The translations under genes were made by a program, and so were the position numbers. From an uncultured Planctomycetaceae bacterium (GTDB taxonomy: Bacteria > Planctomycetota > Planctomycetia > Planctomycetales > Planctomycetaceae), in the NCBI GenBank assembly GCA_903858815.1, contig CAIOKE010000311.1:20807-84806 (forward strand): a DNA stretch of 64,000 nt, read 5' to 3'. Position 1 is the first letter of the stretch. Every line of letters begins with the position of its first letter. The notes beneath the pieces are model-generated. The model was not told where the DNA came from, searched no databases, and saw only the letters and a program-made list of their open reading frames with translations. Positions 10,700 to 58,071 of this stretch are shown one piece after another.

Positions 10700-13600
10700 T
10701 TAGTTGTGATGACCATGCACACCAAACAATGCATGCCCACGATCGCCACCAGCCAGCACCCACGCCAATAAATCCAGAATCTCCTCTCGTGTCAACTTGT
10801 TCAGTACCCCCCTCGGCATGATGCTGACGTCACTCTGAGTACGCTCGTCAATCTCCGACTTCCGCACCACCACCAATTTGTCCGGTGCCGCTGGGTTGTC
10901 CAGAACTTTCAGGACCTCACCTGCATCCTCCACCACCAACCCGGTAATAACCTGTCCGGACTTCAGCACCAGCACGCTGGATTGATACTTCGGCTCAATT
11001 TTCTTCGACGGATTCAGAATGTGGTCCAGCACATCAACCCGCGAATACTCCACAGGCAACTTCGCAAGATCCGGACCGACGGCATTGCCCTGCCCGGAGA
11101 CTCGATGACACCCCGCACAGGCGGCCGCCCTGAACAACTGCTGGCCCACCGCAAAATTGCTGGCACGATGCGTCAGATGCATCACATCTCCCGCCAGATC
11201 GTCCAACTGCCATTCCGTGTTTCGCCCCAGATACTTCAGCAAATCGTCCCGCTGCTGCAGCTTCACTTTCGACAGATACGCTGCAGGGTCTGCTTCGTAC
11301 GCTCGCAGATCAGATACGATATACAGAGCCCCGTACATCCGCCGCCAATGGCCCGGATAGGTACACACATAAGGATAAATGCCAGGCTCCCGCGGAGTTT
11401 CAAAGTAGACGGAAGCCACTTCGCCGGGCTGGACCAGTGTGCTGGCCGCCAGGACATCCTCTGACCGCGGCACAAATCCCCGTTCGGCCGCGTCAGCATC
11501 TCGACCGGTCGACTCCGCCAGTTCACCCACTGCCGCCAGCGTGCCGGGTTTCACAATCGCCACGTTGTGCGGCATGTTGTCAGAATTTGTCAGACGAAAC
11601 TCCACCGGACGCCCCGCCTGCACCGCCACGATTTCGCGATCATAAATCATTCGCTCAGGCACCGTGCCCAGTGCAATCAACGGCACCACAACGTCCCGCA
11701 ACTGTCCCTCCAGACTGTCCGCTGCCGCACCAGTTAAAACCCTTAAAGCCGCCTCTGCCAGCGAGACAGCAAGGGCAGCAGCATCCGTATTGCGCTGCTG
11801 CGGTTCCAGTCCAGACAGGTATTTGACAGCAGCTGTTCCCACCTGAGTCGCCAGCATCGCCGGCCACTTGTCCTCTGGTATTGCCGCCAGTGCTGTCAGC
11901 ACACTACCCGTGGATGTCCCAGTCTCCAGTAACCCAGCAAACACGGCCGTCTTCTCTGACTCAAAACCAGCAATTCCCGACAATGCCACAACCGCCAGAT
12001 CCTGAGGGGTCTGATCCGCTGCTGACACCAGCACATCCGCCGGAATCTCCTGCCGACTGAAGCCCGGCCCCGACCAGCTGACACTCAGACCGTCACCACC
12101 ACCATTATCAAAATACGTCGCCACAATCGCATGCAGGCCCGCCTCCAGACGAATCGCCTGCCCCTTTTCTACCATGCCGTGCAGACCATCATTATCAATC
12201 AGCAATTCACCATCCAGATAAAACCGTGACCCGTCATCCGAACTGATGAAGAATTCATACTGTCCGGACCGTTCAATACGAATGTGTCCCCGGAACATCA
12301 GAGCAAAGCTGTCGCGAGTCTGCAGCACCGGCTGCTCCATCACAATTCTTTCCGCCACACCCGTCGCATTCGCAGTCAGAGCCTGCAGAGTTTCCTGAGC
12401 CACATTCGCGGGATTCGGAGCATAAAAATCCACACGTAATCCGGGCCGCACCAGCGGAGCCCCTGCGCTGCTGCCCGGCAGCGTCGGTACCAACACAGCC
12501 AGCTGCGGAAACAGCGATTCCAAAGCCGGCCTCGAAGTCACCAGTGGCAAGGCACGCAACACATCCTCCTGCAACAACTGCTCCTGCCGCATCGCGGCAA
12601 AGACCGCTTCCGGCCCGCCATCTGCATTGATCCACGCAGCCAGCGCGACGCGGCGAGTTTCAGCCGAATGTGCGGACTGCGCCAACTTCACAATCCGCTC
12701 GCGAACCCGCACCAACTGCTCGACCGGCTGACCAGCCAGAAGTCGACTGAGGCTGTTCACCACATTCTCGCTGGCTTTCGCATTCAACTCCTCGATCAGC
12801 AAAAACAGCTGCTCTGCCTCCGGCACACCTCGCAGGGCTGCCAGCCCGGCCAGAGCCTTCCGCAAAGTCTGCTCGGAAACGCTGCCCCTCGTCAGAATCG
12901 CTCGGTAGACGACTTCGGATGACTCCATCTTCAGCAGATCTTCAACGCTGGCATGCGACAAAGCATAAGCCTCTGCACCTCGAGACAGCTTTCCTCCGGC
13001 AGCAAGCAAATTTCGCACTGCCCCATCAAGGTCGATGGCTCCCCGAGCCTGCCGAATCACAAAACTCAACTGTGCATCCTGCTCCGTCTGCATGGCCGCA
13101 AACAGGATCTCGGCCGCCAGCGGTCCGCGAGTAAACGAAGCGGCCACAACCGCTTCTGCTCGCACCTGTGGTGACGGATCCCCAGCCCGCTTCAACAACA
13201 ATCGTTCCCATGCCAGCACTCTGTCTGCACTCGCTCCCTCATCCAGCACTGCAGGAATCGCGAGTCCGGCAGAGTTCCGCAATTGCGCCGTCTTCGTCGA
13301 CACTGCCGGACGCAGCGAGACATCACGAGCAACATCACGAAGTACACGCACTGCTGCTGCGCGAGCATCCTCCACCGGGCTCTCCAGCAACTGCTCAAGT
13401 AACTCAAAATCCGTCCGTCGCGCCCGCTGCGTTGTCCAAAGCACCTCCACCAGCGAACGCGCATCGGCTGCAGCATCCAATCGCAGCCCCTGACGCCATG
13501 CCTGTACCGCAGTCAACACCTCTGACTGATCCCGCCCCGTCAGTTCCAGACGAGCCCGGTAACGGTCGGCCAGCACCGGTGACGACAGCACCTGCACAAC

Positions 13601-16045
13601 CGCCTCAGTCTCTGCCCCTCGCAATCGCGGCGGTCGCTGGACCCCACGCCCCGTAGCCGTCACACGATAAATTCGACCATGCTGATGATCCCGACTGGGG
13701 TCCCGCAGATTATGCTGCATATGGCCGATGATCGGATTCTGCCAGTCCAGCACATACAACGCCCCGTCACCACCAATCTCCATGTCGCTGGGGCGGAAGT
13801 TCTGATCAGACGAATACAGAATCGGTTCCACTTCCCGAGCAAAAAAGCCGGCACCACGCTTCTCAAAACGATATTGAGTCACCCCCTGAAAGCCAATCAC
13901 ATTGGCGATCAACAGATTCCCGCGGTTCTGCTCGGCAAAATGCTGACTATCCAGAATACAGATCGCTGGAACCGGACGAACTCGCTTTTCATACAACTGC
14001 TCAGGAGCCCCCTGTCCTGGCATCCCGATGTAATTCCCAGTGCCACCAGTCCCGTCAGTGACAAACTGATTGCCCCACTGATCAAACACATCGCCATGCG
14101 GATTTGGACCGATGGGAAAATGGAAATTGATGTCGAAGGTGACGGGATCCCACTCATAGACCCCAGCGGCACCCGTACCAAATCGCTTTACAGGCCCCCA
14201 CGGTGTTTCAAAATTCTCAGCATGAAAGATTCCGCGTGAAAAGTAAAAACGCCCCCCGGGACTCATCACAAACGCATTCGCCGTATGGTGAGTGTCGGCC
14301 GAATCAAGCCCGTGAAAAATTCGCTCCCGAAGATCGGCACGATCGTCCCCGTCTGTGTCCTTCAGGAACCAGATATCAGGGGCCATCGCTACCAGCACTC
14401 CCCCATTCCAGAATTCAAATCCCGTGGGATTATGCAGACCATCGGCAAACGTAATGCAGCGATCAGCCACCCCATCGAAATCGTCGTCCGGGAAAATCAA
14501 CAGCTTATCATTCATCGCCTCCAGCGGATTCCAGTGTGGGTATGTGGGCCATGCTGCCACCCACAGTCGACCATCAGGATCCACAGCACTCTGTACCGGA
14601 TTCACCAGATCAGAGAACATCTCCTCAGAGGCAAACAGGTTGACCTGCATTCCGCTGTGCACCGTCATCTTCTCGATCGCCTCAGTACCACCATAAAATC
14701 GATGTCGCCCACCCTCCAGTTGACCGGGCTTGTTGGTCCGCACCTCCAGCGGCTGCGGCAGTGCCGTGTCATCAGGCTCCACGGCCCGCCCCTCAGCCGC
14801 CGCCCAGATCACAGCGTCCCGACGTGCGGTCATCTCTGTCAGAATCTCAAGTTCACGCTGCATGACCTCAAAATTGGTCTGCCCCGCCACAAATTGCAGC
14901 CCGGAACGACCACCAAACACGCTGTATCCATCAGTCGCGCGATAAACATTGTGCCAAGACAGGTTCTTCGCCAGCACTGCCCGACGAATCAGTGCCAGCT
15001 GATCATCCGTCGCCCGCCCCAATCCGACTGCGAACACCGTACTGACAATCGTCTCCGCAACAATGCGATTGCCTCGATCATTCAGATGCACACCGTTCAG
15101 CGTCAACTCGCCAAAAGCCGCACGTTCTGCCGCATCCTGTGGCACAGTGCGGCCGAAACGATCGCGACGGACTCCCGCCGAATTCCGCACCAGACTGGTA
15201 TCCCACGACACGGTCGATGCGACCTGCTTCGTCGCCGCAAACAGATTGACAAACGGCACCTGCAACTCGGACGCCACACGACCCATTTCGGCCGTATACA
15301 GTTCCAGACGACTATTCACACTGCTGCCATCGGGCAGTTCCGATAACTGCAGATTCTCAAACCACGTCGGTGAACACAGCACCACCTGCGGAGCCGTCCG
15401 ACCGTTATACCGCTGTGCCACGGTGTGGTTCACAAAGGCAGTCAGGTCCCCCCGAAACTTCTCCAGCCCAGCCTGACCACCCCACGACTCATTGTAACCA
15501 AAACAGGCGATCACAACATCAGCACGCACCTTCGTCAGCCAGTCATCCGGACTGCCGAAGTTGTCGGATCGCGGACGTTCTGTCAGCGTGTCACCGCTGA
15601 ATCCCAGATCACGCACCACCAGCCGATGCTGTGGATACGCCGATTGCAGCAGCGTCTCCAGCCAGCCCGCATGCTGCATACGATCAGCCAGAGTATTCCC
15701 GATCACGGCAATCCGCATTTCCGGCTGCAGAACAATCGCGTGCTGCGCCTGGACTGCAGCAGCAGGACTCAATAAACAGCCAATGCTGACGATCAGACTT
15801 TGAACGAGACGCAGACAGGCGGCAGACGGCGCACAGATCGTTTGAACATGGCAGGTGGTAGACAGCAAGTATCGCATGAGCTGATCCGAGGGCGGGCAGG
15901 GCAGATTCAGAACTGATTTCCACCCCAGCATCTCAGGTTCCTCAATGCAGTCAAGCGCAGCACTCGTCGCGGGCTGAATGAAAACACGCCGCATGGCCTC
16001 CCCCCGGAACCACGCAGCGTGCCTCAGATTCAGGTGGTCAACCAC
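10700..16045 (-). CDS. Giant secreted multidomain redox protein: SGNH/GDSL-like hydrolase + PVC dehydrogenase-type beta-propeller + HEAT repeats + PA14 + plastocyanin/azurin-like Cu domain + C-terminal cytochrome c
   Basis: Single 1781-aa ORF; motifs VNLFASEEMFSDLVNPVQSAVDPDGRLWVAAWPTYPHWNP, PA14-like YEFFISSDDGSRFYLDGELLIDNDG, Cu ligands MPHN...YVCTYPGHWRRM, heme CAGCH. True start may be 15877 (MRYLLSTTCHVQT, signal-like). Confidence 0.88.
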   Translation of the reverse strand: MVDHLNLRHAAWFRGEAMRRVFIQPATSAALDCIEEPEMLGWKSVLNLPCPPSDQLMRYLLSTTCHVQTICAPSAACLRLVQSLIVSIGCLLSPAAAVQAQHAIVLQPEMRIAVIGNTLADRMQHAGWLETLLQSAYPQHRLVVRDLGFSGDTLTERPRSDNFGSPDDWLTKVRADVVIACFGYNESWGGQAGLEKFRGDLTAFVNHTVAQRYNGRTAPQVVLCSPTWFENLQLSELPDGSSVNSRLELYTAEMGRVASELQVPFVNLFAATKQVASTVSWDTSLVRNSAGVRRDRFGRTVPQDAAERAAFGELTLNGVHLNDRGNRIVAETIVSTVFAVGLGRATDDQLALIRRAVLAKNLSWHNVYRATDGYSVFGGRSGLQFVAGQTNFEVMQRELEILTEMTARRDAVIWAAAEGRAVEPDDTALPQPLEVRTNKPGQLEGGRHRFYGGTEAIEKMTVHSGMQVNLFASEEMFSDLVNPVQSAVDPDGRLWVAAWPTYPHWNPLEAMNDKLLIFPDDDFDGVADRCITFADGLHNPTGFEFWNGGVLVAMAPDIWFLKDTDGDDRADLRERIFHGLDSADTHHTANAFVMSPGGRFYFSRGIFHAENFETPWGPVKRFGTGAAGVYEWDPVTFDINFHFPIGPNPHGDVFDQWGNQFVTDGTGGTGNYIGMPGQGAPEQLYEKRVRPVPAICILDSQHFAEQNRGNLLIANVIGFQGVTQYRFEKRGAGFFAREVEPILYSSDQNFRPSDMEIGGDGALYVLDWQNPIIGHMQHNLRDPSRDHQHGRIYRVTATGRGVQRPPRLRGAETEAVVQVLSSPVLADRYRARLELTGRDQSEVLTAVQAWRQGLRLDAAADARSLVEVLWTTQRARRTDFELLEQLLESPVEDARAAAVRVLRDVARDVSLRPAVSTKTAQLRNSAGLAIPAVLDEGASADRVLAWERLLLKRAGDPSPQVRAEAVVAASFTRGPLAAEILFAAMQTEQDAQLSFVIRQARGAIDLDGAVRNLLAAGGKLSRGAEAYALSHASVEDLLKMESSEVVYRAILTRGSVSEQTLRKALAGLAALRGVPEAEQLFLLIEELNAKASENVVNSLSRLLAGQPVEQLVRVRERIVKLAQSAHSAETRRVALAAWINADGGPEAVFAAMRQEQLLQEDVLRALPLVTSRPALESLFPQLAVLVPTLPGSSAGAPLVRPGLRVDFYAPNPANVAQETLQALTANATGVAERIVMEQPVLQTRDSFALMFRGHIRIERSGQYEFFISSDDGSRFYLDGELLIDNDGLHGMVEKGQAIRLEAGLHAIVATYFDNGGGDGLSVSWSGPGFSRQEIPADVLVSAADQTPQDLAVVALSGIAGFESEKTAVFAGLLETGTSTGSVLTALAAIPEDKWPAMLATQVGTAAVKYLSGLEPQQRNTDAAALAVSLAEAALRVLTGAAADSLEGQLRDVVVPLIALGTVPERMIYDREIVAVQAGRPVEFRLTNSDNMPHNVAIVKPGTLAAVGELAESTGRDADAAERGFVPRSEDVLAASTLVQPGEVASVYFETPREPGIYPYVCTYPGHWRRMYGALYIVSDLRAYEADPAAYLSKVKLQQRDDLLKYLGRNTEWQLDDLAGDVMHLTHRASNFAVGQQLFRAAACAGCHRVSGQGNAVGPDLAKLPVEYSRVDVLDHILNPSKKIEPKYQSSVLVLKSGQVITGLVVEDAGEVLKVLDNPAAPDKLVVVRKSEIDERTQSDVSIMPRGVLNKLTREEILDLLAWVLAGGDRGHALFGVHGHHN

Positions 16046-16091: not shown

Positions 16092-18041
16092 TCAGTCACC
16101 ATAGCCACTGCCTGCGCCGTAACCATAACCGGTTTTCACCGGCTTCGGCTCGTAGTTGTGCATGCCGCGACGATGATCATAATCCACACTGGAACAGTGC
16201 GCGGTGTAGGAACCGCTGAAAGTGCGGAAGTGCTTCAGAATCTCTACTTCTTCGCCACCATACACTGTGGCCACGTCTGCCTTGCAGGCATCCGTACGAT
16301 ATGGAGCCTGACCGTTGATCCGACAGATCTGGTACGAACCCCCGGGAATGTGAATCGGGCAGGCATCCGCCGAGCGATTGCGGTACACCCAGCGTTCGAC
16401 ACAGCCAACCTTCGGCGATTCATAGCAGGATTTGCTGTCGTACTGCCGTTTGTTGACCTGATAGCCATTCCCCGCAGATTCGATCTCGAAATATCGAGTC
16501 GTCTCGCAGTCTGATGGCTTCAGAATCCGATGTGGTCGCAGACAGTCGCCCGGGCGGACTGTTGCACAATCCTTCTTCTTCGAACCCTCCACCACAAACT
16601 TCAGCCATGGAGTGCAACCACGACCATAACGATCGTCATCGCACTTCTCATCATCCCGGCCGTAGCCACTCTTCGAATCCGAATAGCCCTGACCATACGA
16701 GCTTCGACGGTTGTAGTCGCTGTCACCACTGCGACCGTAGCCGCTGCCGGACTTTGAGTCCCGGTCACCATAGCTGTCGCCCGAAGACCCATAGCGACGA
16801 TCATCGTCGTCATCGCAGTCATTCTTTCGGTCGTTACCCGCCCCATGCCCGTTGCCGCAGCGTGGCTTCCCGGATGGACGGCATCCATACGACTGTTCCA
16901 GCGAGTTGCACAGGTAAATCTCATTATCGCAGTCGCTGAAGTCAATCACTACGTCTGCTCGCTCGCCCGGACACAACACCACACAGTCCTCTTCCACGGC
17001 GTTGTTGTACAGCCATGAATCCTTTCCAAGGCGGATCAGTTTCATGCCGTTATTCAGCTTCAGCGTCAGGAATCGTGTGTTGCAGGCATTCAGCAGACGG
17101 AAACGATACTTGCGTCGCTCTACATTCAGAACTGGCTGCACCTTGCCATTCACAACATACAGGTCACCAAGATTGCCTTCATCCTGCTGTGATTTATAAC
17201 AGAGCGAACCATCAGAATTCAGGCTGCGATCCTGCAGACACAGAGGTATGTCATACCGAGCGGCCGGCAGGACATTCCGCTGCACCAGATCATATTCCGT
17301 CTCATCCATACTGAGACAGAAACCGGAAAGACCGTAATAATTGCTGGCCCCGGCAACCCCCTGAGCCCGATCATGATACCACGCCGTCGATGGACTTTCG
17401 GAATAGTCCGGACGACCACCCAGCATGGGCACTGTGTTCGGCAGGAAATAGTCCCGCGCCCGGCCCGGAAGAACGTACTGATTGGGAGCACCAGCGGAAT
17501 GTGATGGCAGATCCAGCCCATGAAAATGACAGGCCATCTCAAGATCAATATCATTCCAGAGACGCAGCACACATGGCTGTCCAACCACTGTGCGAATCGT
17601 CGGACCCGGAACTGATCCACCATAACCATACACAGGAGTCTTCACGCCCGGAACATACTCGTTCACAGACTTCTTCGCTCGCAACTCATAAAACGCCGGC
17701 TGGTACTTCTCATACCACGTGGTTTCAGGTGACTCGGCACAACGACGATCGCGATACTCCGGCGCTACCCCGTGATATGCAGAACCCACACGGTACGGAT
17801 CCTGACCAACAGCCTTCGGACGCAGCACTGGAGGTATCGGACACTTCTGCGTAAATGGTCGATATCCAAAGACGTCCACACCCTTCTTACCACCCGACTT
17901 CCTGACACCTGACAGCGAATATCCACCGCCACCCTTACCTGACTTCCCCTTGCTGTCAGCTGTCACCACACCTGCTGAAACCGCCGCAATTGCCCCCGCA
18001 GCCTGCTGCAAAAGTGCACGTCGTGATACGGAACTGGACAT
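16092..18041 (-). CDS. Degenerate, cysteine-rich multicopper-oxidase-fold protein, Tat-like signal (SRRALLQQAAG), with D/S/G/Y-rich insertion
   Basis: Aligns along its length with the split MCO at 18847-21916 (for example RLGKDSWLYNNAVEEDCVVLCPGERADVVIDFSD) but 5 of 10 expected Cu-ligand His are replaced; ORF-track start 18092 moved to MSSSVSRRALL at 18041. Confidence 0.85.
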   Translation of the reverse strand: MSSSVSRRALLQQAAGAIAAVSAGVVTADSKGKSGKGGGGYSLSGVRKSGGKKGVDVFGYRPFTQKCPIPPVLRPKAVGQDPYRVGSAYHGVAPEYRDRRCAESPETTWYEKYQPAFYELRAKKSVNEYVPGVKTPVYGYGGSVPGPTIRTVVGQPCVLRLWNDIDLEMACHFHGLDLPSHSAGAPNQYVLPGRARDYFLPNTVPMLGGRPDYSESPSTAWYHDRAQGVAGASNYYGLSGFCLSMDETEYDLVQRNVLPAARYDIPLCLQDRSLNSDGSLCYKSQQDEGNLGDLYVVNGKVQPVLNVERRKYRFRLLNACNTRFLTLKLNNGMKLIRLGKDSWLYNNAVEEDCVVLCPGERADVVIDFSDCDNEIYLCNSLEQSYGCRPSGKPRCGNGHGAGNDRKNDCDDDDDRRYGSSGDSYGDRDSKSGSGYGRSGDSDYNRRSSYGQGYSDSKSGYGRDDEKCDDDRYGRGCTPWLKFVVEGSKKKDCATVRPGDCLRPHRILKPSDCETTRYFEIESAGNGYQVNKRQYDSKSCYESPKVGCVERWVYRNRSADACPIHIPGGSYQICRINGQAPYRTDACKADVATVYGGEEVEILKHFRTFSGSYTAHCSSVDYDHRRGMHNYEPKPVKTGYGYGAGSGYGD

Positions 18042-18252
18042 GATTGTAACTCCCCCCCCGAGGACCATTGTCCCTGAACGACAGACGAGCAATCCTCGCC
18101 AGATCGAACCACCGGGCTGACACAGCCACTGCAGTCAGGACTCCACTCCCCAAAGCAAACCCCAGACCAGTCGTTTTTTTTCATGCCACAAAAATTCAGA
18201 TTTCCCCGAACTCGAACTTTTCACAATGCTGAACATCGAAAATTCCAATCCT

Positions 18253-18692: not shown

Positions 18693-19545
18693 AAAGGTGC
18701 CCCTCGGGAGGGCGAGACTCCTGCCGAGCCGAAGTCAATTGCCAACGTTCAGTTGACTTCGTTCGCCCACAACCGTAGCCCGAGCATTCCTGCTCGGCCC
18801 CCCTTCACCCATCTGTTAATCACCCGAGGAATGCTGCTGGAGCAACTCAGGGAAAGGCCGCCTGAATTGGCCGAGGGGACTGCACCGGATTCACGTGCGG
18901 ATCGACCGTCATCATCATTCGCAGATCCTCGTGCTCAATCGTGTGACAGTGAAACACAAAAGGCCCCCGAAACGAACGGAAGTCCAGCAGCGATTCGGCC
19001 TCTCCACCGCCGTCAAGGATCACGACATCACTTTTGAATCGATCAGCCAGTGGGGGCGGAGCACCATTCAGACGAATGATCTGTTGCCCTGTCAGATGGA
19101 CATGTACGGGATGCCACCAGCCGGCTGTACTGTTACGGAAGATCCAGCGTTCAACAGTCCCCAATGTCGGAGTCGCTGTGGCAATCGCGGGATCGAAATA
19201 CTGCTTGTTGATCTGCCACGCTCCATTCCGCCGCTGGAAATCAAAGACTCGAGTCGCCACAGCATCAGCAGGGTTCAGTTCCAGATGCGGCCGAAGCAGA
19301 GTTCCAGGAACAACGGAAGCGCTGTCGGGCTGGCGAGCCCCATCCACGACAAACTTCAGCCACTGCTGCGGTTGCTGCATGTGCACCGGCTTGGCAAGGC
19401 TGCCCGCTGGCTTGCGACCGTCAATCTGATACAGAATGTTCTCCAGAAACACCTCGTTCGGGGCATCACTTAAGTCTACCACCACGTCCGCTCGCTGCCC
19501 CGGCGCAAGCAGTATCGTCTGCTGCTCAATCGCTGCCGGATACAG

Positions 19546-19555
19546 CCAGGAATCC
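19546..19555. repeat. Target site duplication, left copy (CCAGGAATCC)
   Basis: Identical 10-mer at 20846-20855 flanking the IS. Confidence 0.93.
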
Positions 19556-20845
19556 CACGGCCAGCGCACACTAAGTTCCTTTGATGCCAAGGACTTGCAA
19601 CATGAAGTTCCAGTTCCAGCCGCATGATTTGCGCTTCATGACCAGGCTCATCTTGCCGGGATGCTGCTTGAGCAATGACAAAGTGAAGCGTCTGAGCCAT
19701 GCCATGTTCTCGGTTGCCTGTCGTTTTCGGGTCTTCAATCCGTCCTCATTGTAGGTGACATCCAGACTCCAGTGACAAGTATTCTCGATCCCCCAGTGAC
19801 TGCGAACACACCGCGCAAAAAGGGCCACATCAAGGGGCAGGCTGCTGAGGTAGTATCGAATCTCTGTATGCTCCTTGCCGCCCTTCACAAACGTGTAAAC
19901 GACTAATCCGATCGTTGCCAATCCCGCCCATAGACTACGATCCGGAAACTCCTTTGGCACCTCAAATTGAATATAGATGCGTGATTCATTTCTTCCGTGA
20001 CTGGGCTTCTTTGGCGTATCTTCAAGTTGCTGATGCCGGGTCTCGGAAAAGTCCCTGCTAACCTGCTCTTCGACGTAATTGATGACCGCTGCATTCGTCT
20101 TTTCGTGATTTGCTTTCAGCGCCAGAATGTAGTCACCTTTGCCATCCACAATCTGCTGGGCAATCTTCTTCTGCGTCCCCATGGCGTCGATCGTGATGAT
20201 CACCTTCTTTAAGTCGATCAGTCGCAAAAGCTGTGGAATTGCAGTGATCTCGTTCGATTTTTGATCCGTGGGCACCTGAGCCAGTGTGAGTCCTTTCTCC
20301 GAGGCCCATGCACTCACCAAATGCAGAGGACCGATTCCCCGGTTCGAATCACTGCTCCCCCGCAGCGTCTTTCCGTCAATGGCAACATGCCGCTGTGAAC
20401 CATCGTCGGTGCCTCCGATGAGTCGACTGATCCAGTCGGTAAAGCATTCCTGAAAGGCCTCCGGTTTAAGAGCACATAAGACTCTGCGAATCACATCACG
20501 TGACGGAATGCCATTCGGCAGGTCGAGCACAGACGGCAAATTTTCTTCAAGGCTCTTCGCCCAACGATGAATCGACGTCGGACCATCAGCTCCGGCAAGG
20601 ACGGCCATCAAGCTTATAGCAACGACACTCGCGAGCGGGTGCTTGCGATTGATCTCGGATCGCGGATCTTCGAGTTCATCAAAACACGCGACCAGTTCTT
20701 CAAGAGTTGCCAACACTGCCTGACTCACCACGACCAAGCCTCCCTGTTGAATCTGAGTTCTCAAAGAGGATGTCATAGCAGATCAACGGTCAATGCGCAA
20801 CATTACCAACTCAACTCATGTTACCCAGAGTGCGCGCTGGCCGTG
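19556..20845 (-). mobile_element. ISAs1-family insertion sequence, 1290 bp
   Basis: Terminal inverted repeats CACGGCCAGCGCACACT / CACGGCCAGCGCGCACT (16 of 17), single transposase ORF, 10-bp direct repeats. Confidence 0.93.
19571..20776 (-). CDS. ISAs1-family DDE transposase
   Basis: HVAIDGKTLRGS, VIITIDAMGTQKKIAQQI, SHWGIENTCHWSLDVTYNED motifs. Confidence 0.93.
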   Translation of the reverse strand: MTSSLRTQIQQGGLVVVSQAVLATLEELVACFDELEDPRSEINRKHPLASVVAISLMAVLAGADGPTSIHRWAKSLEENLPSVLDLPNGIPSRDVIRRVLCALKPEAFQECFTDWISRLIGGTDDGSQRHVAIDGKTLRGSSDSNRGIGPLHLVSAWASEKGLTLAQVPTDQKSNEITAIPQLLRLIDLKKVIITIDAMGTQKKIAQQIVDGKGDYILALKANHEKTNAAVINYVEEQVSRDFSETRHQQLEDTPKKPSHGRNESRIYIQFEVPKEFPDRSLWAGLATIGLVVYTFVKGGKEHTEIRYYLSSLPLDVALFARCVRSHWGIENTCHWSLDVTYNEDGLKTRKRQATENMAWLRRFTLSLLKQHPGKMSLVMKRKSCGWNWNFMLQVLGIKGT

Positions 20846-20855
20846 CCAGGAATCC
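20846..20855. repeat. Target site duplication, right copy (CCAGGAATCC)
   Basis: Identical to 19546-19555. Confidence 0.93.
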
Positions 20856-22127
20856 TTGCCCAGCTTTGTGAACGGCTGCCCCGTACTGAGTCGTAACTCA
20901 AGAAAGCGAGCGTTGCAGCCATTCAAAAGTCGCAGTCGGTACTTCCGCCGCTGCATCGTCATGAATGGCTGCACCCGTCCATTCGCCAGCCAGACATCGC
21001 CCAGCTGCCCATTGTGATCCAGCAGGTTGTAAAACAGAGTCCCATCCGGATTGAACTTCCGATCCTGCAGCACCAGTGGAATATCATAAGCTGTGGCTGG
21101 CAGCACATTGCTGCGAATCAAATCGTCCTCCAGTTGATCCGTCACAAGGTAGAAACCCGCCAGGCCATACCAAACGTTGGGCCCTGCTACGTCCATCGCA
21201 TGATCATGAAACCACATCGTCGAAGGACTCTCGGAAAAGTCATACTGAGCATTCCGCAAGGGCACAGTATTCGGATAGAAATAATCGCGAGCTCGGCCGG
21301 GCAGCACATAAAAATTCGGGTAACCATCGGAATGGGCCGGACTGTGACCACCGTGCAGATGCGTTGAGAGCTCCACATCCAGCTCATTATACGTACGCAC
21401 CACCACCGGCTGACCCACTCGAGCCCGTATCGTGGGCCCCGGGATTCTGCCCCCATAGCCATAACCCGGCGTCCGCACCCCCGGCACATACTCATGCACC
21501 ACACGCTGCACACGCAGATCGTAATACTGAGTCGGATAGAGCTCCAAAAAGGACTGGTCGGGAAACTCAGCGTAACGACGGTCGAAAAACTCAGGAGCAA
21601 TCCCGTGAAAGACGGCACCCGGTTGCCACGGAGCAACCCCGACTGATGTCGGCTGCAGATCCAACGGAACTGAACAAGGCTGCGTGAATGGCTGATAGCC
21701 TCCTGGTATGACCGCCACTGCTGCACCGCCTGCAGGGCCACGCCGCCGGTTTACAGCACGTGACTGGCTTACTGAACCTGCCGGCTTTCTGTCGTTTGAA
21801 CCGTCCCCGGAAGACGCGATGCCTCCCAACGAGACACCCACTCCGGCACCAACGCCACGAACCAGCACACCACGCCGATCAACTGTGTTTCGCATTGCCA
21901 GACCCGCCTCTGCCACTGGAAAACAATCAAAGTCACCAGAAGCAAACGTTCAGCAGTTCAGGTGCCGAAAAATTTATTTCCCCTGACTTAAAAAAGAACT
22001 TCTGAAATCCCGGTAAAAACACAGGCTTGTCAGGGAATGCAAAAGAACGCAGTAAACAAAAACTTACCAAAGGTGCTGACCACTGTACCAACACCGGAAC
22101 GACACAAACCTGATCACTTGACCAGAG

Positions 22128-24226: not shown

Positions 24227-25540
24227 TCAATCCGGCAAACGACGGATGCTGATGTTCCGGAAACTGACGGCGTCGCCGTGACCAGCGAAACCGAAATACC
24301 CGGTCTTACGTTCTTTCCCGGGATGCGGACGACCACCCATGTACTCAGTGACCTTCGCCAGATCTGCATTCAGAATCACATTTCCGTTCAATTCCACGCG
24401 AATCGAACTGCCGTTCACTGTAACTTCCTGGAAGTTCCACTGCCCAGCCGGACGCAGAAAGCCTCGCTCCGCCGCAACCATGCCATAGGCCGAGCCATGG
24501 TACTGGCGAGCATCAAGTTTTGCATAGTTGGCATGCTCTGAATCCAGAACCTGCAACTCACACATAGCATCGTAAGCAGGATCACCCTTGCCATCCGTGC
24601 GAATCGCCAGACCATTGTTGCCGGACGGTGGAGTACTGAACTGAAGCCGAACCACGAAGTTCGCATACTCATCGGCAGTGTGCAGGATTCCGCCCTTGCC
24701 TTCGCGACAGCGAATTGCACCATCCACCACTTCATAGTTATCAACTGCCCCGGACCAGCCCTTCAGATCACTGCCGCTGAACACGGAAACAAATCCGTCT
24801 GAGTCTCGCTCGCCCAGAATCTTCGCAGACTCTTCGGCACTGATCTCTCGCAGGAAAATATTCTTCCAGCGAATTTCACCGCCATGCGTCTGCAGACAGA
24901 TCGGACCACTGGCGAACAATGGCTTCTGACGATCCCAGAAGTTCTCCATGATTGCATTATCAACAACCATCTTTCCGTTCAGCCAGACTGACGTGCGAGC
25001 ACCAATCTGACGAATCCGGAAACTGTTCCATTCACCGAACGCCTTGTCAGCCAGCACAGCAGGATCCTTGCCCGGAGCCCCCGCGCTGTTGTTCCACAGA
25101 CCGCCACTGCCCTTGTCAGCACCCAGTTTGAACTTGGCCTCTTCAGTGAAGTCCCAGATCTGAACCTGCGGATTGGCTTTCAGATAGATCCCCGAATCCG
25201 CCTTCGGCACCGTCCGATAGTCAATCAGCAGTTCGTAATCCGTGTACTCCCTGTCAGTTACCAGATACGCACCCTGACCATCATTCACAAGGTCACCGTT
25301 CTGCACTGACCAGTGCTGCTTCGCGTCAGCAGTCCACTCCTCAATCTGCTTTTTTCGCATCTCTTCGGGCATGCGAGCCAGATCGCGGGGATCGAAATGC
25401 GGCATCCCGTGCCAGCCTTCCAGATCTTTTCCGTTGAAAATGGCATGGAAACCTTCTGGTGGTTCGGCAGCGCCTGCAACTGCAGACACCACTGTCAGGA
25501 ACGCGGTGGCAAGGACTGCCAGGAATGGCGTTCGAAGCAT
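24227..25540 (-). CDS. Secreted protein with two DUF1080 (3-keto-disaccharide hydrolase-like) domains
   Basis: FHAIFNGKDLEGWHG and FVSVFSGSDLKGWSG starts; GEWNSFRI/GQWNFQEVTV; signal peptide. Confidence 0.88.
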   Translation of the reverse strand: MLRTPFLAVLATAFLTVVSAVAGAAEPPEGFHAIFNGKDLEGWHGMPHFDPRDLARMPEEMRKKQIEEWTADAKQHWSVQNGDLVNDGQGAYLVTDREYTDYELLIDYRTVPKADSGIYLKANPQVQIWDFTEEAKFKLGADKGSGGLWNNSAGAPGKDPAVLADKAFGEWNSFRIRQIGARTSVWLNGKMVVDNAIMENFWDRQKPLFASGPICLQTHGGEIRWKNIFLREISAEESAKILGERDSDGFVSVFSGSDLKGWSGAVDNYEVVDGAIRCREGKGGILHTADEYANFVVRLQFSTPPSGNNGLAIRTDGKGDPAYDAMCELQVLDSEHANYAKLDARQYHGSAYGMVAAERGFLRPAGQWNFQEVTVNGSSIRVELNGNVILNADLAKVTEYMGGRPHPGKERKTGYFGFAGHGDAVSFRNISIRRLPD

Positions 25541-50561: not shown

Positions 50562-50718
50562 CTACGCTCGATCACTCAGGAACAGCCTCCACGTCCACCC
50601 ATATCCTAGAGCGTTGCCGGTTCCAATTCGATACCCACCCCAACTTCATTCCCCATTCTCCTGTGACACTCTAACATTCCTGCTGCCCGACACCACCACC
50701 CAACCGCCAGCGAGCATC

Positions 50719-53700
50719 ATGCTGAACATCCACATCCAGCCCACACTCCAACTGCTGCTGCAGGCCATCCTGATCCTCACGGCTCAGGATGCACCCACAA
50801 CAATCTCAGGCTCCGGTCCGCTCGAACCACCGGCCGCACTGCAGTCCTTTCAACTGCAACAGGGCTTCACCCTCCAACTCGTCGCAGCCGAACCACTCAC
50901 CACTGATCCCGTCGCTGCTGCCTTCGACGAAGATGGACGACTCTTCGTCGTCGAAATGAATGACTACCCCTACACCGACAAATCCACCGATCTCCCCAAT
51001 CAGGAACGCACGACCGATCTGCCCATCGGAAAAATCCGACTGCTGATCGACGACAATGATGACGGCCTGTTCGATCGCAGCAGCATCTTCGCCCGCGACC
51101 TGTCATGGCCCACAGGCATCGCCATCTGGCGGGACGGCATCTTCGTCGCCGCCACGCCCGACCTGTGGTGGCTGCAGGATGCTGACCACGATGGCGTCGC
51201 CGAAAAACGCGAACGCATCCTCACTGGCTTCCGCAAACTCAACGTACAGGCTGTCGCCAATAACCTGCTCTGGACTTTCGATCATCGCATCTGCGGCGCC
51301 GGTGGCACCAACGGAGGACTACTGGCCGGGGCCGCACTGCCCAACGGCAGCCCCACGCCCCTCAACATGTCCCGCCATGACTTCAGCTTCACACCCACGG
51401 GCCCCCCACACGACTTTCAACTGCTGTCAGGTGGAGCACGCTTTGGTAATACCATCGATGATTTCGGAATTCGCTTCATCTGCAATATCCGCAATCCGGT
51501 CCAGCACGTCGTACTGCCACTCGACGCACTCACTCGCAACCCCAACTTTACGCCCACCAGCCCACTGCACGACGTGGCCGCCAGCGGTGATCAGCTGCCC
51601 GTCTACCGCACCAGCCCGCCGGAACCATGGCGCATCATCAACGCCGCTCGACTGACAGGGCAGGGCGACCCACGCATGCCACGCAGCGAAAAAAATGCCA
51701 TCGGATTCCTCACATCGGCCTGCGGAGTCACTGTGTACCGCGGTGATGCATGGCCTGCCACATTCCGCTCACAGGTCCTGCTCTCAGACGTCGCCGCCAA
51801 TCTCGTACACAGACAACAGCTGACACCCGCCGGATCCACCTTCTCCTCACAACGCATCGATCAGAACTGCGAATTCATCACCTCCACCGACAACTGGTTT
51901 CGCCCCGTCAATTTCGTACATGCACCCGACGGCACCCTCTACCTGCTGGATATGTATCGCGAAACCATCGAACACCCATGGTCCATGCCCCCTGACCTCA
52001 AGGCACTGCTCGATCTGGAACGAGGCCGTGATCGCGGTCGCATCTACCGCATCACACCACCCAACTTCCGCCGTCGCCCCACACCCACGCTCTCACAAGC
52101 CACAACGAACGAACTTGTCACACTCCTCGAACACCCCAATGCATGGCACCGCGAATCCGCCGCACGACTGCTGTTTCAGCAGCAACACCCATCCACTGCC
52201 TCGCTGCTGCACAAACTCCTGCTCGATTCCCCCGCCCCACACGCCCGACTGCAGGCCCTCTGCAGCCTCAGTGCACTGGCTCGCACCGATTCCGCCACCC
52301 GCAACCTGCTCGACAACAGCGTCCCCAGACTGCTGCAGGACGCTGCCCCCGCAATCCGCCGACAAACGCTGCTGATCGCCACCGAACTCAACCTGCATGC
52401 TCTGCCCACAGCCATCACCGCCGGGGCCAGCGATGCCGCTCCCGAAGTTCGACTGCAGGCAGCGCTCAGCCTGCACACACTGCCACACCCGGAACAACTC
52501 ACACTCGTCACAAAACTGCTCAGCGAAAACTCACTCGACCCCTGGATCTGCACCGCAACCCTCACAGCCGCTCAGGACCATGAAATCCTGCAACTGCTGT
52601 TGGCCATCCGGAATCCTGCATTCCCCACGGAGGCCGCAAAGATGCCCCTGCTGCTGCAACTGGCCGGCATCGTGGGACTCCGCAATCAACCGGCCGAACT
52701 GCGGACCCTCGCACAGGCACTCAACCGCCTGCCCACAACCGCTCGAACCAACCCACAAACCGGCGAACTGCTCGTCGCACTCGATGATGGTCTCCGCCAC
52801 ACTCAGTCCAGCCTGATCGCCGCATGGCACGATCAACCTGACGCAATCGCATTCACCGAACAACAGGTCACCGCAGCTGCCCTGCACGCCACAGATCCGC
52901 AATTGCCGGCTGAACAACGAGTCGCAGCGATTCGACTGCTCGCACTCAGCCAGCAGCCCACACTGCTGACTCAACTCCTCGATCTCGCTGACCCGCTGCA
53001 GCCCGACCCCGTGCGACTTGCCGCCCTCAAACTGCTGCCCACCCGCCTCGATGCCGCCGCCGCCGAACGTCTGGCCAGCCATTGCCCACGTTCAACCACC
53101 AGCCTGCAACACGAAATCATCGAATGCCTCTGCAGCTCCACTGTCGGAACGACAACACTGCTCGAATCCATCGCCAGCGGACTCATTCCGCCCAGCCGTA
53201 TCACTCCCATTCGCAGATCGCTGCTGCTGAAAAATACTCGCCCGGAAATCCGTCAGCAGGCTGAAAAACTGCTGGCTCCGGATCGCACTACACCCCGCTC
53301 ACAAGTCCTCGCCGCATGGCAGGATACACTGACACTCACCGGCAACAGCCAGCAGGGACGCACCATCTTCCAGCAGGAATGCGGCACCTGCCATCGCATG
53401 GGAAACCTCGGCACCGATATCGGACCCAGCCTGCTCACTGTCAAACACCGCACGCCAGCAGAACTCCTCACACAGATCCTCGACCCCAATCGCGAAGTCG
53501 GTCCGGACTTCCTGCAGTTCGTCGCCGTCACTCACAATGGTCAGACCGTTGCCGGTATCCTCAGCACAGAAACACCCGATGCCATCACGCTCACCCGCAG
53601 CGGTAAACAGCAGACCACACTCAACCGAACCGACATCGCCGAACTCCAGGCCACCGGCATCAGCCTCATGCCCGAAGGCTTCGAACAGAAACTCTCCCGC

Positions 53701-53745
53701 CAGGACCTCGCTGACCTCATCCAGTTCATCCGCACCGGCCCCTGA
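50719..53745 (+). CDS. Secreted PVC-type dehydrogenase beta-propeller + HEAT + cytochrome c protein
   Basis: GFTLQLVAAEPLTTDPVAAAFDEDGRLFVVEMNDYP, HEAT-like helical repeats, CGTCHRMGNLGTDIGPSL heme region; start chosen at MLNIHIQPTLQLLL. Confidence 0.92.
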   Translation: MLNIHIQPTLQLLLQAILILTAQDAPTTISGSGPLEPPAALQSFQLQQGFTLQLVAAEPLTTDPVAAAFDEDGRLFVVEMNDYPYTDKSTDLPNQERTTDLPIGKIRLLIDDNDDGLFDRSSIFARDLSWPTGIAIWRDGIFVAATPDLWWLQDADHDGVAEKRERILTGFRKLNVQAVANNLLWTFDHRICGAGGTNGGLLAGAALPNGSPTPLNMSRHDFSFTPTGPPHDFQLLSGGARFGNTIDDFGIRFICNIRNPVQHVVLPLDALTRNPNFTPTSPLHDVAASGDQLPVYRTSPPEPWRIINAARLTGQGDPRMPRSEKNAIGFLTSACGVTVYRGDAWPATFRSQVLLSDVAANLVHRQQLTPAGSTFSSQRIDQNCEFITSTDNWFRPVNFVHAPDGTLYLLDMYRETIEHPWSMPPDLKALLDLERGRDRGRIYRITPPNFRRRPTPTLSQATTNELVTLLEHPNAWHRESAARLLFQQQHPSTASLLHKLLLDSPAPHARLQALCSLSALARTDSATRNLLDNSVPRLLQDAAPAIRRQTLLIATELNLHALPTAITAGASDAAPEVRLQAALSLHTLPHPEQLTLVTKLLSENSLDPWICTATLTAAQDHEILQLLLAIRNPAFPTEAAKMPLLLQLAGIVGLRNQPAELRTLAQALNRLPTTARTNPQTGELLVALDDGLRHTQSSLIAAWHDQPDAIAFTEQQVTAAALHATDPQLPAEQRVAAIRLLALSQQPTLLTQLLDLADPLQPDPVRLAALKLLPTRLDAAAAERLASHCPRSTTSLQHEIIECLCSSTVGTTTLLESIASGLIPPSRITPIRRSLLLKNTRPEIRQQAEKLLAPDRTTPRSQVLAAWQDTLTLTGNSQQGRTIFQQECGTCHRMGNLGTDIGPSLLTVKHRTPAELLTQILDPNREVGPDFLQFVAVTHNGQTVAGILSTETPDAITLTRSGKQQTTLNRTDIAELQATGISLMPEGFEQKLSRQDLADLIQFIRTGP

Positions 53746-55845: not shown

Positions 55846-58071
55846 TCAGTCCACAAACACAAACTCGTTCGAATTCAACAACGCACGACACAGTTCCGCA
55901 ACCGCATGCCGTCGCTCAGATTCACCACGAGCCTCCAGAACTCTCTGCAGCAAGAGTCGTGCCGCTTCCCACTCATCCGCCGCCGGTTCTCGCAGAAGAA
56001 TTCGACGAAACGCACTCAAAATGACCGGGCCCTGCCACTCCGGAACTTCCGATTCCCCCGCCAGCAGCTCGCCCGATAACGCCTCCACACACGAGATCGT
56101 CTCCGGACTATTCAACAGCATAATCGCCTGCGGAGCCACTATGGTTTCGTCCCGACGAGCACACGAGGCCGCAGAATCCGGCAGATCAAACACCTGCAGA
56201 AATGGAATCGGCAGACAACGCTTCCGCACCAGATACACACTGCGCACTCGAGTTTCCCCGCCACGCTCCGCATACCAACCCTGCATCCGACCGTCGTCCT
56301 TACCCTCCTCAGCCTCCAGAATCGCCGGCTGAGCATGCCGCAGGTCCTCGGCAACTTCCGGCCACCGCGGAGCCCCCCCGGATGCAGCCTGCAACTGACC
56401 AGTCGCCTGCAACAGACAATCCCTCAACGTCTCCGCATCCATCCGCCGCAGTGTCTGACGCCCCCACAACACATTCTCCGCATCCGCAACTCCAGTACCC
56501 GCCACGTCCACCACACGCCGATACGCCAATGATGTCAACATCAATCGATGCATCCGCTTCACAGACCAGCCACCACGCACAAAATCCTGCGCCAACCAGT
56601 CCAGCAAATCCTGCTGCTCAGGACGAGCTCCCGTGTGGCCGAAATCATTGGCCGTTGAGACCAGCCCCACACCAAAATGCTGCTGCCACAGTCGATTCAC
56701 CAGCACCCGCGCTGTCCAGGGATTCTCCGCCGAAACGATCCACTCAGCCAATGCCAGACGACGACCACTGCCGCCGGCTGCCGATCGCCCAATCACCGCA
56801 TCTCCCGGCCAGTACAGCGCCGGAAATCCCGGCTGGACCTCGGCCCCCGGAGCACCCACATCTCCCTGACTCAGTACACACGTCGCAGGAATCGAATCCA
56901 CACTGTCCCGTACGCCCAGCGCCCGATCATACGATCGCAACCGACCTCGCAACGTCGAAACTTGCCCCTCCAACTCCCCCCGCTCCGACTCCGACAGTCC
57001 ATCAGACTTCAGTCGCGTCTCAAGCGCATTGATTTCAGTAGCCACAGGAGCATTCGCAGAATCAATCTCCTGCCGCTCAGCCATCGTCGAAACCGTCAGC
57101 TGATCCGCATACTTCAACGATGCAAAAAATGCCCGCAGACGATAATGATCCGCCTGAGTCAACGGGTCATACTTGTGGTCATGACACTGACAACACGACA
57201 TCGTAAGTCCCAGAAATGCGGCCGCCGTCGTGTTCGTCAGATCCGCCTGCAACTCAGCCTGCAGACGAGCCTCCTCCTGAAAAATCGCTGCCGTACTGTC
57301 CCACTGCCCCAGACGCAGATATCCCGTCGCCAGCAACGCATCCCGATCCTGCTCAGTCTGCGGATCTCCAGCGACCAACTCATCACCCGCCAGCTGCTCA
57401 CGCACAAACTGATCAAACGGCTTATCCGCATTGAACGCGCGAATCACATAGTCCCGATACTTCCACATCGTCGGACGGAACTCGTCCCGCTCATAACCGT
57501 TTGTGTCAGCATATCGCACCACATCCAGCCACAGCCGAGCCTGACGCTCGCCGTAAGCCGGCGATGCCAGCAGACGATCCACCTGCCGCTCCCACGCACC
57601 GGGCTGAGTATCCCCAACAAATACATCCAGCTCAGCTGACGTCGGCAACAGACCCGTCAAATCCAGAGTCACCCGCCGCAACAGAACCCGACGGTCCGCC
57701 TCTCCCGATGCCACCACCCCCGCCGCCTCCAGTTTCCGCTGCAGAAATGCGTCAATCGCATTCCCATCAGCAGGTATCGACGAAGGTACGTCCACTGCAC
57801 GAGGCACTTGCAGTGACCACAATGCCAGACGCTCATCCCCAAAGGCCACACGCACCGGATTACGCGAGTCCTCCCACGCACTCCCGATCGGCCTCGCGTC
57901 ACTCTCTGCAGATCCCACTCGCTCGTCATCCGCGAAGCCCGGAACCACGGCAGAACACACGACCACAGTACCTGCCCACAGCAGCAGCCCACAAGGCCAC
58001 TGCCGACACAGCTGCACGACACAACTCGGCACGCACTGCTGGAATCGTCGCAACATCGCCACCTCACACAA
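55846..58071 (-). CDS. DUF1549/DUF1553 domain protein
   Basis: LRRVTLDLTGLLPT, RLWLDVVRYADTNGYERDE, MSCCQCHDHKYDPLTQADHYRL, RVLVNRLWQQHFG; start may be 58056 (MLRRFQQC). Confidence 0.93.
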   Translation of the reverse strand: MCEVAMLRRFQQCVPSCVVQLCRQWPCGLLLWAGTVVVCSAVVPGFADDERVGSAESDARPIGSAWEDSRNPVRVAFGDERLALWSLQVPRAVDVPSSIPADGNAIDAFLQRKLEAAGVVASGEADRRVLLRRVTLDLTGLLPTSAELDVFVGDTQPGAWERQVDRLLASPAYGERQARLWLDVVRYADTNGYERDEFRPTMWKYRDYVIRAFNADKPFDQFVREQLAGDELVAGDPQTEQDRDALLATGYLRLGQWDSTAAIFQEEARLQAELQADLTNTTAAAFLGLTMSCCQCHDHKYDPLTQADHYRLRAFFASLKYADQLTVSTMAERQEIDSANAPVATEINALETRLKSDGLSESERGELEGQVSTLRGRLRSYDRALGVRDSVDSIPATCVLSQGDVGAPGAEVQPGFPALYWPGDAVIGRSAAGGSGRRLALAEWIVSAENPWTARVLVNRLWQQHFGVGLVSTANDFGHTGARPEQQDLLDWLAQDFVRGGWSVKRMHRLMLTSLAYRRVVDVAGTGVADAENVLWGRQTLRRMDAETLRDCLLQATGQLQAASGGAPRWPEVAEDLRHAQPAILEAEEGKDDGRMQGWYAERGGETRVRSVYLVRKRCLPIPFLQVFDLPDSAASCARRDETIVAPQAIMLLNSPETISCVEALSGELLAGESEVPEWQGPVILSAFRRILLREPAADEWEAARLLLQRVLEARGESERRHAVAELCRALLNSNEFVFVD

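Follow-up and report, generated by a model that had tools for sequence, protein, structure and literature searches.

The window analysed here is a stretch of 64,000 nucleotides from an uncultured Planctomycetaceae bacterium. On its minus strand, positions 10700-16045 contain one open reading frame, which starts with GTG at 16045 and is free of frameshifts and stops. In a search of the whole genome, this 1781-codon ORF was found at a single place, again without internal stop. Its features, all on the minus strand, are the following:

10700-16045, minus strand: complete reading frame of 1781 codons, listed with a GTG start (ORF listing and genome search)
15749-15877, minus strand: likely true start, ATG (residue 57), and putative signal peptide with cleavage near residue 99 (predicted from hydropathy and a comparison with relatives in the genus)
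15041-15718, minus strand: SGNH-fold domain, residues 110-335, catalytically degenerate (Pfam, Foldseek, residue census)
15692-15700, minus strand: block I, GNT replacing GDS, nucleophile Ser absent (residue census)
15086-15097, minus strand: block V, NGVH replacing DxxH, Asp absent and His kept (residue census)
13646-14683, minus strand: PVC-type six-bladed beta-propeller, residues 455-800, with invariant His 504, 586, 587, 650 and 778 (Pfam, NCBIfam, AlphaFold2, Foldseek, residue census)
12581-13645, minus strand: alpha-helical, HEAT-like repeat region, residues 801-1155 (secondary structure of the model; HEAT_2 in homologues)
12011-12373, minus strand: PA14 domain with Asp-Asp motif, residues 1270-1271 (Pfam, Foldseek, residue census)
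11681-12010, minus strand: helical linker from PA14 to cupredoxin (secondary structure of the model)
11291-11680, minus strand: auracyanin-like type-1 copper domain, residues 1456-1585 (Pfam, alignment, Foldseek)
11567-11569, minus strand: copper ligand His1493 (residue census)
11336-11365, minus strand: copper ligands Cys1561, His1566 and Met1570 in CTYPGHWRRM (residue census)
10712-11188, minus strand: PVC-type c-heme domain with Hfq-like insert, homologous to Kustd1711 (NCBIfam, alignment)
11105-11119, minus strand: heme attachment site CAGCH, residues 1643-1647 (motif, residue census)
10817-10819, minus strand: axial heme ligand Met1743 in SIMP (residue census, alignment)

A preliminary description, made from the sequence alone, had proposed a single extracellular polypeptide. 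Two separate genes, or one broken by a frameshift, are ruled out by the uninterrupted frame and by full-length homologues in many species. The GTG at 16045 is probably too early, and translation probably begins at the ATG at 15877, directly before a stretch resembling a signal peptide, which would give a protein of about 1725 aa. Similar hydrophobic segments lie directly ahead of the conserved SGNH motif in genus relatives. From this putative signal peptide, which supports the extracellular location, we infer that the multi-domain protein is secreted.

The domains listed in that description (SGNH hydrolase-like, PVC propeller, helical repeats, PA14, type-1 copper and c-heme) were all supported by database and structure searches. 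On the one 1781-aa chain, Pfam recognized Lipase_GDSL_2 at residues 126-328 (E = 9e-10), DUF7133 at 455-672 (E = 7e-59), PA14 at 1242-1336 (E = 1e-14), Copper-bind at 1464-1575 (E = 4e-8) and Cytochrom_C at 1633-1669 (E = 2e-8). The HEAT match is weak in this protein (0.006, under the cut-off) and clear in homologues. Both TIGR02604 (174.4 bits against a curated cut-off of 122.2) and TIGR02603 (89.9 against 68.15) of NCBIfam were recovered. AlphaFold2 modelled the N half with pLDDT 89.6 and pTM 0.90, and the C half with pLDDT 90.4 and pTM 0.69; at the latter pTM any proximity of copper and heme would be tentative, which counts against the relay. With these models, Foldseek found matches among SGNH esterases and auracyanins, PA14 domains with bound sugar and a quinoprotein propeller of six blades, so that the SGNH and cupredoxin assignments are each supported by both Pfam and Foldseek.

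Across the loci of homologues, no gene neighbour was conserved: genes for sulfatases, DUF1501 and DUF1553 proteins recur beside relatives, never in more than 18 of some 80 loci (raw counts). In the window, positions 16092-18092 (minus strand) encode a multicopper-oxidase-like protein with a long insert rich in Gly, Asp, Ser, Tyr and Arg. Its C-terminal copper-ligand motif reads HCSSVDYDH, as against HCHTIEHED in the neighbouring paralogue, so the ligands of its trinuclear copper site seem degenerate. Another multicopper oxidase gene, at 18847-21916 (minus strand), is broken by a DDE transposase insertion (19571-20776). Such neighbours were considered as partners and rejected: the closest relative (L013) is the only one that shares them, and the context therefore gives no support. 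Judged by eye, the minus-strand genes at 55846-58071 and 24227-25540 encode, respectively, a planctomycete protein of DUF1549/DUF1553 type and one resembling DUF1080 (3-keto-disaccharide hydrolase).

The fold of the SGNH domain is well supported (Pfam 39.8 bits against a cut-off of 32.9; Foldseek match to Axe2, E = 2e-8). The nearest folds are acetylxylan esterases, and the domain shares with the SGNH/GDSL enzymes Axe2 and AlAXEase and with BT4096 the fold, the Gly and Asn of the oxyanion region and the block V His. Unlike them, it lacks the catalytic Ser and the catalytic Asp. Across 84 aligned long homologues, the nucleophile site holds Thr in 71, Ala in 4, Asn in 3, Gly in 3 and Val in 2, with Ser in 0 of 83, while the Asp of the block V DxxH is replaced by Asn in 82/84 and its His is kept in 83/84. 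Block II carries Gly in 72 and Ala in 12, and the block III oxyanion Asn is kept in 80/84. An active esterase was rejected because both Ser and Asp are absent. The deacylating module joined to a redox relay, as first described, could draw on the confirmed fold and on the retained His and oxyanion Asn, but the Thr at the nucleophile site is itself exchanged for Ala, Asn, Gly or Val in 12 sequences, and we give this reading almost no credence. Since Q124, R145, D152, R159, E186, E230 and N244 are invariant within the domain, we read it as a conserved polar pocket without hydrolytic triad, predicted to bind a ligand rather than to act as an esterase. The organism's own genome also encodes a 1169-aa paralogue (L003; C276) of the order SGNH-propeller-heme without copper, which has Ser at the nucleophile site and Asn in place of Asp. 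A Ser-His dyad, and hence an active relative, is possible there.

The propeller aligns with other PVC propellers (hhalign probability 99.5). Its best fold match is 6jt5, the AA12 domain of the sugar-oxidising quinohemoprotein CcPDH (E = 4e-8), and the fungal pyranose dehydrogenase resembles the present protein in joining a six-bladed propeller, a heme and a carbohydrate-binding module on one secreted chain (cytochrome, PQQ propeller and CBM in CcPDH). One reading to consider is therefore a bacterial equivalent of the AA12 enzyme, acting as a PQQ-dependent sugar dehydrogenase. All 55 sequences compared retain two quinoprotein-site residues, the catalytic His (H587) and its neighbouring Asn (N648), as judged from a profile alignment with weak support beyond the motifs. 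However, at the position of the PQQ-binding Arg, R430 in CcPDH and R228 in sGDH (PMC6881789), Ala occurs in 29 and Pro in 26 of the 55 sequences and Arg in none. The alignment with the GSDH quinoprotein family is likewise weak (hhalign probability 2.8), with a plausible motif register. PqqE had no match at E 1e-30 in 21 genomes. Searches for PqqC and, across the phylum, for the TrAA12 family gave no match, and their controls were equally silent. Uptake of PQQ from outside instead of own synthesis is possible. With the Arg lost and no PqqE seen, a PQQ enzyme is disfavoured and appears distinctly improbable. The two proteins differ further in their redox centres, heme c and copper here against heme b in CcPDH, and sugar oxidation would be a predicted activity here. 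Separately, the same genome encodes GSDH-family propellers (L148-L152), some of them fused to heme c motifs; PqqE was not found there, and PQQ scavenging or a non-PQQ use of the GSDH fold is possible for these proteins.

The propeller is also marked by histidines. His 504, 650 and 778 are invariant in the subfamily and H702 is nearly so; these residues are absent from the compared PVC propellers outside the SGNH-fused group. H586 and H587 form a consecutive pair of invariant residues, and His 702, 775 and 789 are near-invariant in SGNH-fused propellers. It is conceivable, although rather unlikely, that His 504, 586, 587, 650 and 778 together with 702, 775 and 789 build a subfamily-specific multi-His metal centre, and that the proteins form a new class of secreted metallo-oxidoreductases in which interchangeable copper or heme mediators feed a Ca-tuned c-heme. 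Elsewhere in the window, 50614-53745 (plus strand) encodes a PVC propeller-HEAT-cytochrome protein without SGNH, PA14 or copper domains, in which nearly all the invariant propeller histidines are missing.

The model of the PA14 domain matches sugar-bound PA14 structures, and its Asp-Asp Ca/sugar motif is conserved (Asp in 47/48 and 48/48). The glycan-binding module proposed earlier is thus upheld as a PA14 domain of glycan-binding type, with binding predicted. In freshwater Verrucomicrobia, PSCyt-type genes joined to CBMs, including PA14, have been reported with no function assigned (PMC5615132). The position is exchangeable: F5/8C, a fold that is likewise frequent among sugar-binding modules, takes the place of PA14 in 25 of 129 homologues, all of them complete proteins. 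A related PVC propeller-HEAT-cytochrome protein, Lac161_ORF7, reportedly hydrolysed lactose when purified, and no similarity to known GHs was found in that study (PMC5342196). Because this activity is non-redox, it counts against an electron-transfer role and would favour a glycoside hydrolase or lyase whose propeller cleaves a glycosidic bond and carries a redox tail. Such an enzyme would leave the copper and the heme unexplained, and Lac161_ORF7 is unlike known GHs; we regard it as very unlikely.

The copper domain has a cupredoxin fold close to that of auracyanins (TM 0.85-0.89 by target length), and it shares with them (2aan, 6kol) the His/Cys/His/Met ligands. Wherever the copper domain is complete (72 rows), all four ligands are intact. 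An azurin is ruled out (29 bits against a cut-off of 105), the fold being nearer to auracyanin. Auracyanins are free-standing carriers, whereas the domain here lies inside a large fusion. In one survey, azurin was judged to be essentially absent from Planctomycetes (PMC8779525), which fits an auracyanin-like cupredoxin hidden in a fusion.

From CxxCH over the inserted beta domain to the axial Met of SIMP, the heme domain can be aligned to the second half of Kustd1711, the diheme cytochrome of Kuenenia (7zs0). Cys, Cys, His and Met are present in 77/77 heme domains. The present protein differs in having a single heme fused to many domains. Auracyanins have potentials near +200 to +240 mV. In Kustd1711, the hemes are tuned to about +350 mV by Ca, which backbone carbonyls and a propionate of the heme coordinate (PMC11791136). 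By analogy with these potentials, transfer from copper to heme would be downhill.

In four homologues (L032, L107, L128 and L121, the last from Alienimonas chondri), a second heme motif follows the PA14 linker, ahead of the heme domain. The three that were scanned (L107, L121 and L128) contain Pfam Cytochrom_C (E = 1e-17 to 4e-19) and no copper domain, and L032 is of the same sequence type. The replacement module was found in 13/393 genomes of the phylum, and 8 of these matches reached E 1e-100 or lower. In the propeller tree the four homologues lie apart, which could indicate repeated independent swaps, but in C-terminal trees their modules form one clade (SH-aLRT 97 and 100), and such swaps were rejected. 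The scatter possibly reflects weak resolution of the propeller tree. We read the change from copper to cytochrome as one probable replacement event, with recombination perhaps spreading the module. That a class I cytochrome c can stand where other members have a mononuclear copper carrier is the best evidence for single-electron transfer from this slot to the terminal heme. The relay from copper to heme that had been proposed is thereby strengthened: an intact type-1 copper site stands beside an intact His/Met c-heme, and such a relay appears plausible from the conserved ligands and the exchange of carriers.

The family is widespread in the phylum. Matches at 1e-100 were obtained in 55 of 59 relatives from the genus, family and class (paralogues counted too), and at 1e-120 in 75 of 393 genomes sampled evenly over the phylum. 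A scan of GTDB contigs yielded 80 loci. Almost all carry a Planctomycetota label, those of Singulisphaera acidiphila and Alienimonas chondri among them; isolated MAG assignments, for instance to Kuenenia or Verrucomicrobia, are unreliable. Architectures of 129 proteins were sorted with domain models built in this analysis, many of the remaining proteins being clipped by contig or locus ends. At least 42 of the 129 have the identical five-domain order SGNH-propeller-PA14-cupredoxin-heme, 4 carry the cytochrome c at the cupredoxin position, and in 5 the propeller and helical repeats are followed directly by the heme domain. Conservation in dozens of species excludes a chance fusion, and by these comparisons the architecture is an old, modular planctomycete family common in the phylum. 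Two split arrangements were also observed. A tandem pair (L104:7977-16557) encodes SGNH-propeller-PA14 without copper or heme, then SGNH-propeller-Cu-heme without PA14. At L145:2624-7397, a 956-aa SGNH-propeller gene is followed after about 90 bases by a 606-aa gene with a PVC heme domain.

Relatives of about 900 aa keep the SGNH domain and the propeller without copper or heme nearby. The propeller's job is thus not always dependent on the relay, and the "self-contained" relay of the preliminary description does not hold generally. Nearly all the subfamily-specific propeller residues (His 504, 650, 778 and 702) are kept in these short forms. Such forms, the conserved pocket residues around an absent triad and the fact that no cofactor site was identified would suit a non-enzymatic binding protein or scaffold. 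Glycan binding would then fall to the SGNH-like pocket, the propeller and PA14, and the Cu/heme tail would have a separate use in metal handling, sensing or general electron buffering. The invariant His and Arg of the propeller, and two redox sites that are strictly conserved, speak for chemistry instead, and we consider a scaffold unlikely.

Taken together, these features tentatively suggest, at somewhat less than an even chance, a secreted, glycan-tethered electron-transfer protein that passes electrons from copper to a high-potential heme. The propeller would take electrons from a saccharide-type substrate, probably by means of a metal or another cofactor bound to it; the SGNH-like pocket may help it, and PA14 would hold the substrate close. 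Electrons would go to copper and on to the c-heme, a downhill step if the heme is like that of the nearest studied homologue (about +350 mV), and the c-heme would reduce a soluble periplasmic acceptor. Here we infer the direction of electron flow, the saccharide substrate and the propeller cofactor. The relay could also run in reverse, from a periplasmic donor through heme and copper to a His-rich metal site of the propeller that reduces a substrate. The cytochrome-fused nitrous-oxide reductase of Epsilonproteobacteria has the same domain order, propeller, cupredoxin and heme c, and the invariant propeller histidines, with the H586-H587 pair, would be in line with such a site. N2O reductase is nevertheless outside the Foldseek top 50, the copper is mononuclear type 1 and not CuA, and the heme potential expected by homology would be high for a donor. 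A reversed relay is therefore quite unlikely, and transfer from copper to heme is the reading preferred here.

By its domain content, the protein belongs to the known planctomycete and verrucomicrobial family of PVC-type heme-binding CxxCH proteins (TIGR02604 plus TIGR02603), itself functionally orphan. The propeller, the C-terminal heme domain and the helical repeats between them are shared. Added here are the degenerate N-terminal SGNH domain, the slot for PA14 or F5/8C, the slot for copper or cytochrome, and extra invariant propeller histidines. No description of the SGNH-propeller-PA14-Cu-heme architecture was found in the open-access literature. PVC-type propeller/heme domains occur in many copies per planctomycete genome, and 70 stretches of the organism's own genome match them. 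The subfamily offers a natural experiment, in which one scaffold occurs with copper, with cytochrome replacing it or lacking both carriers, and in which the glycan-binding module is of two exchangeable types. These variants open the electron-transfer hypothesis to direct tests, and the invariant histidines are the residues to probe for the function of the propeller.
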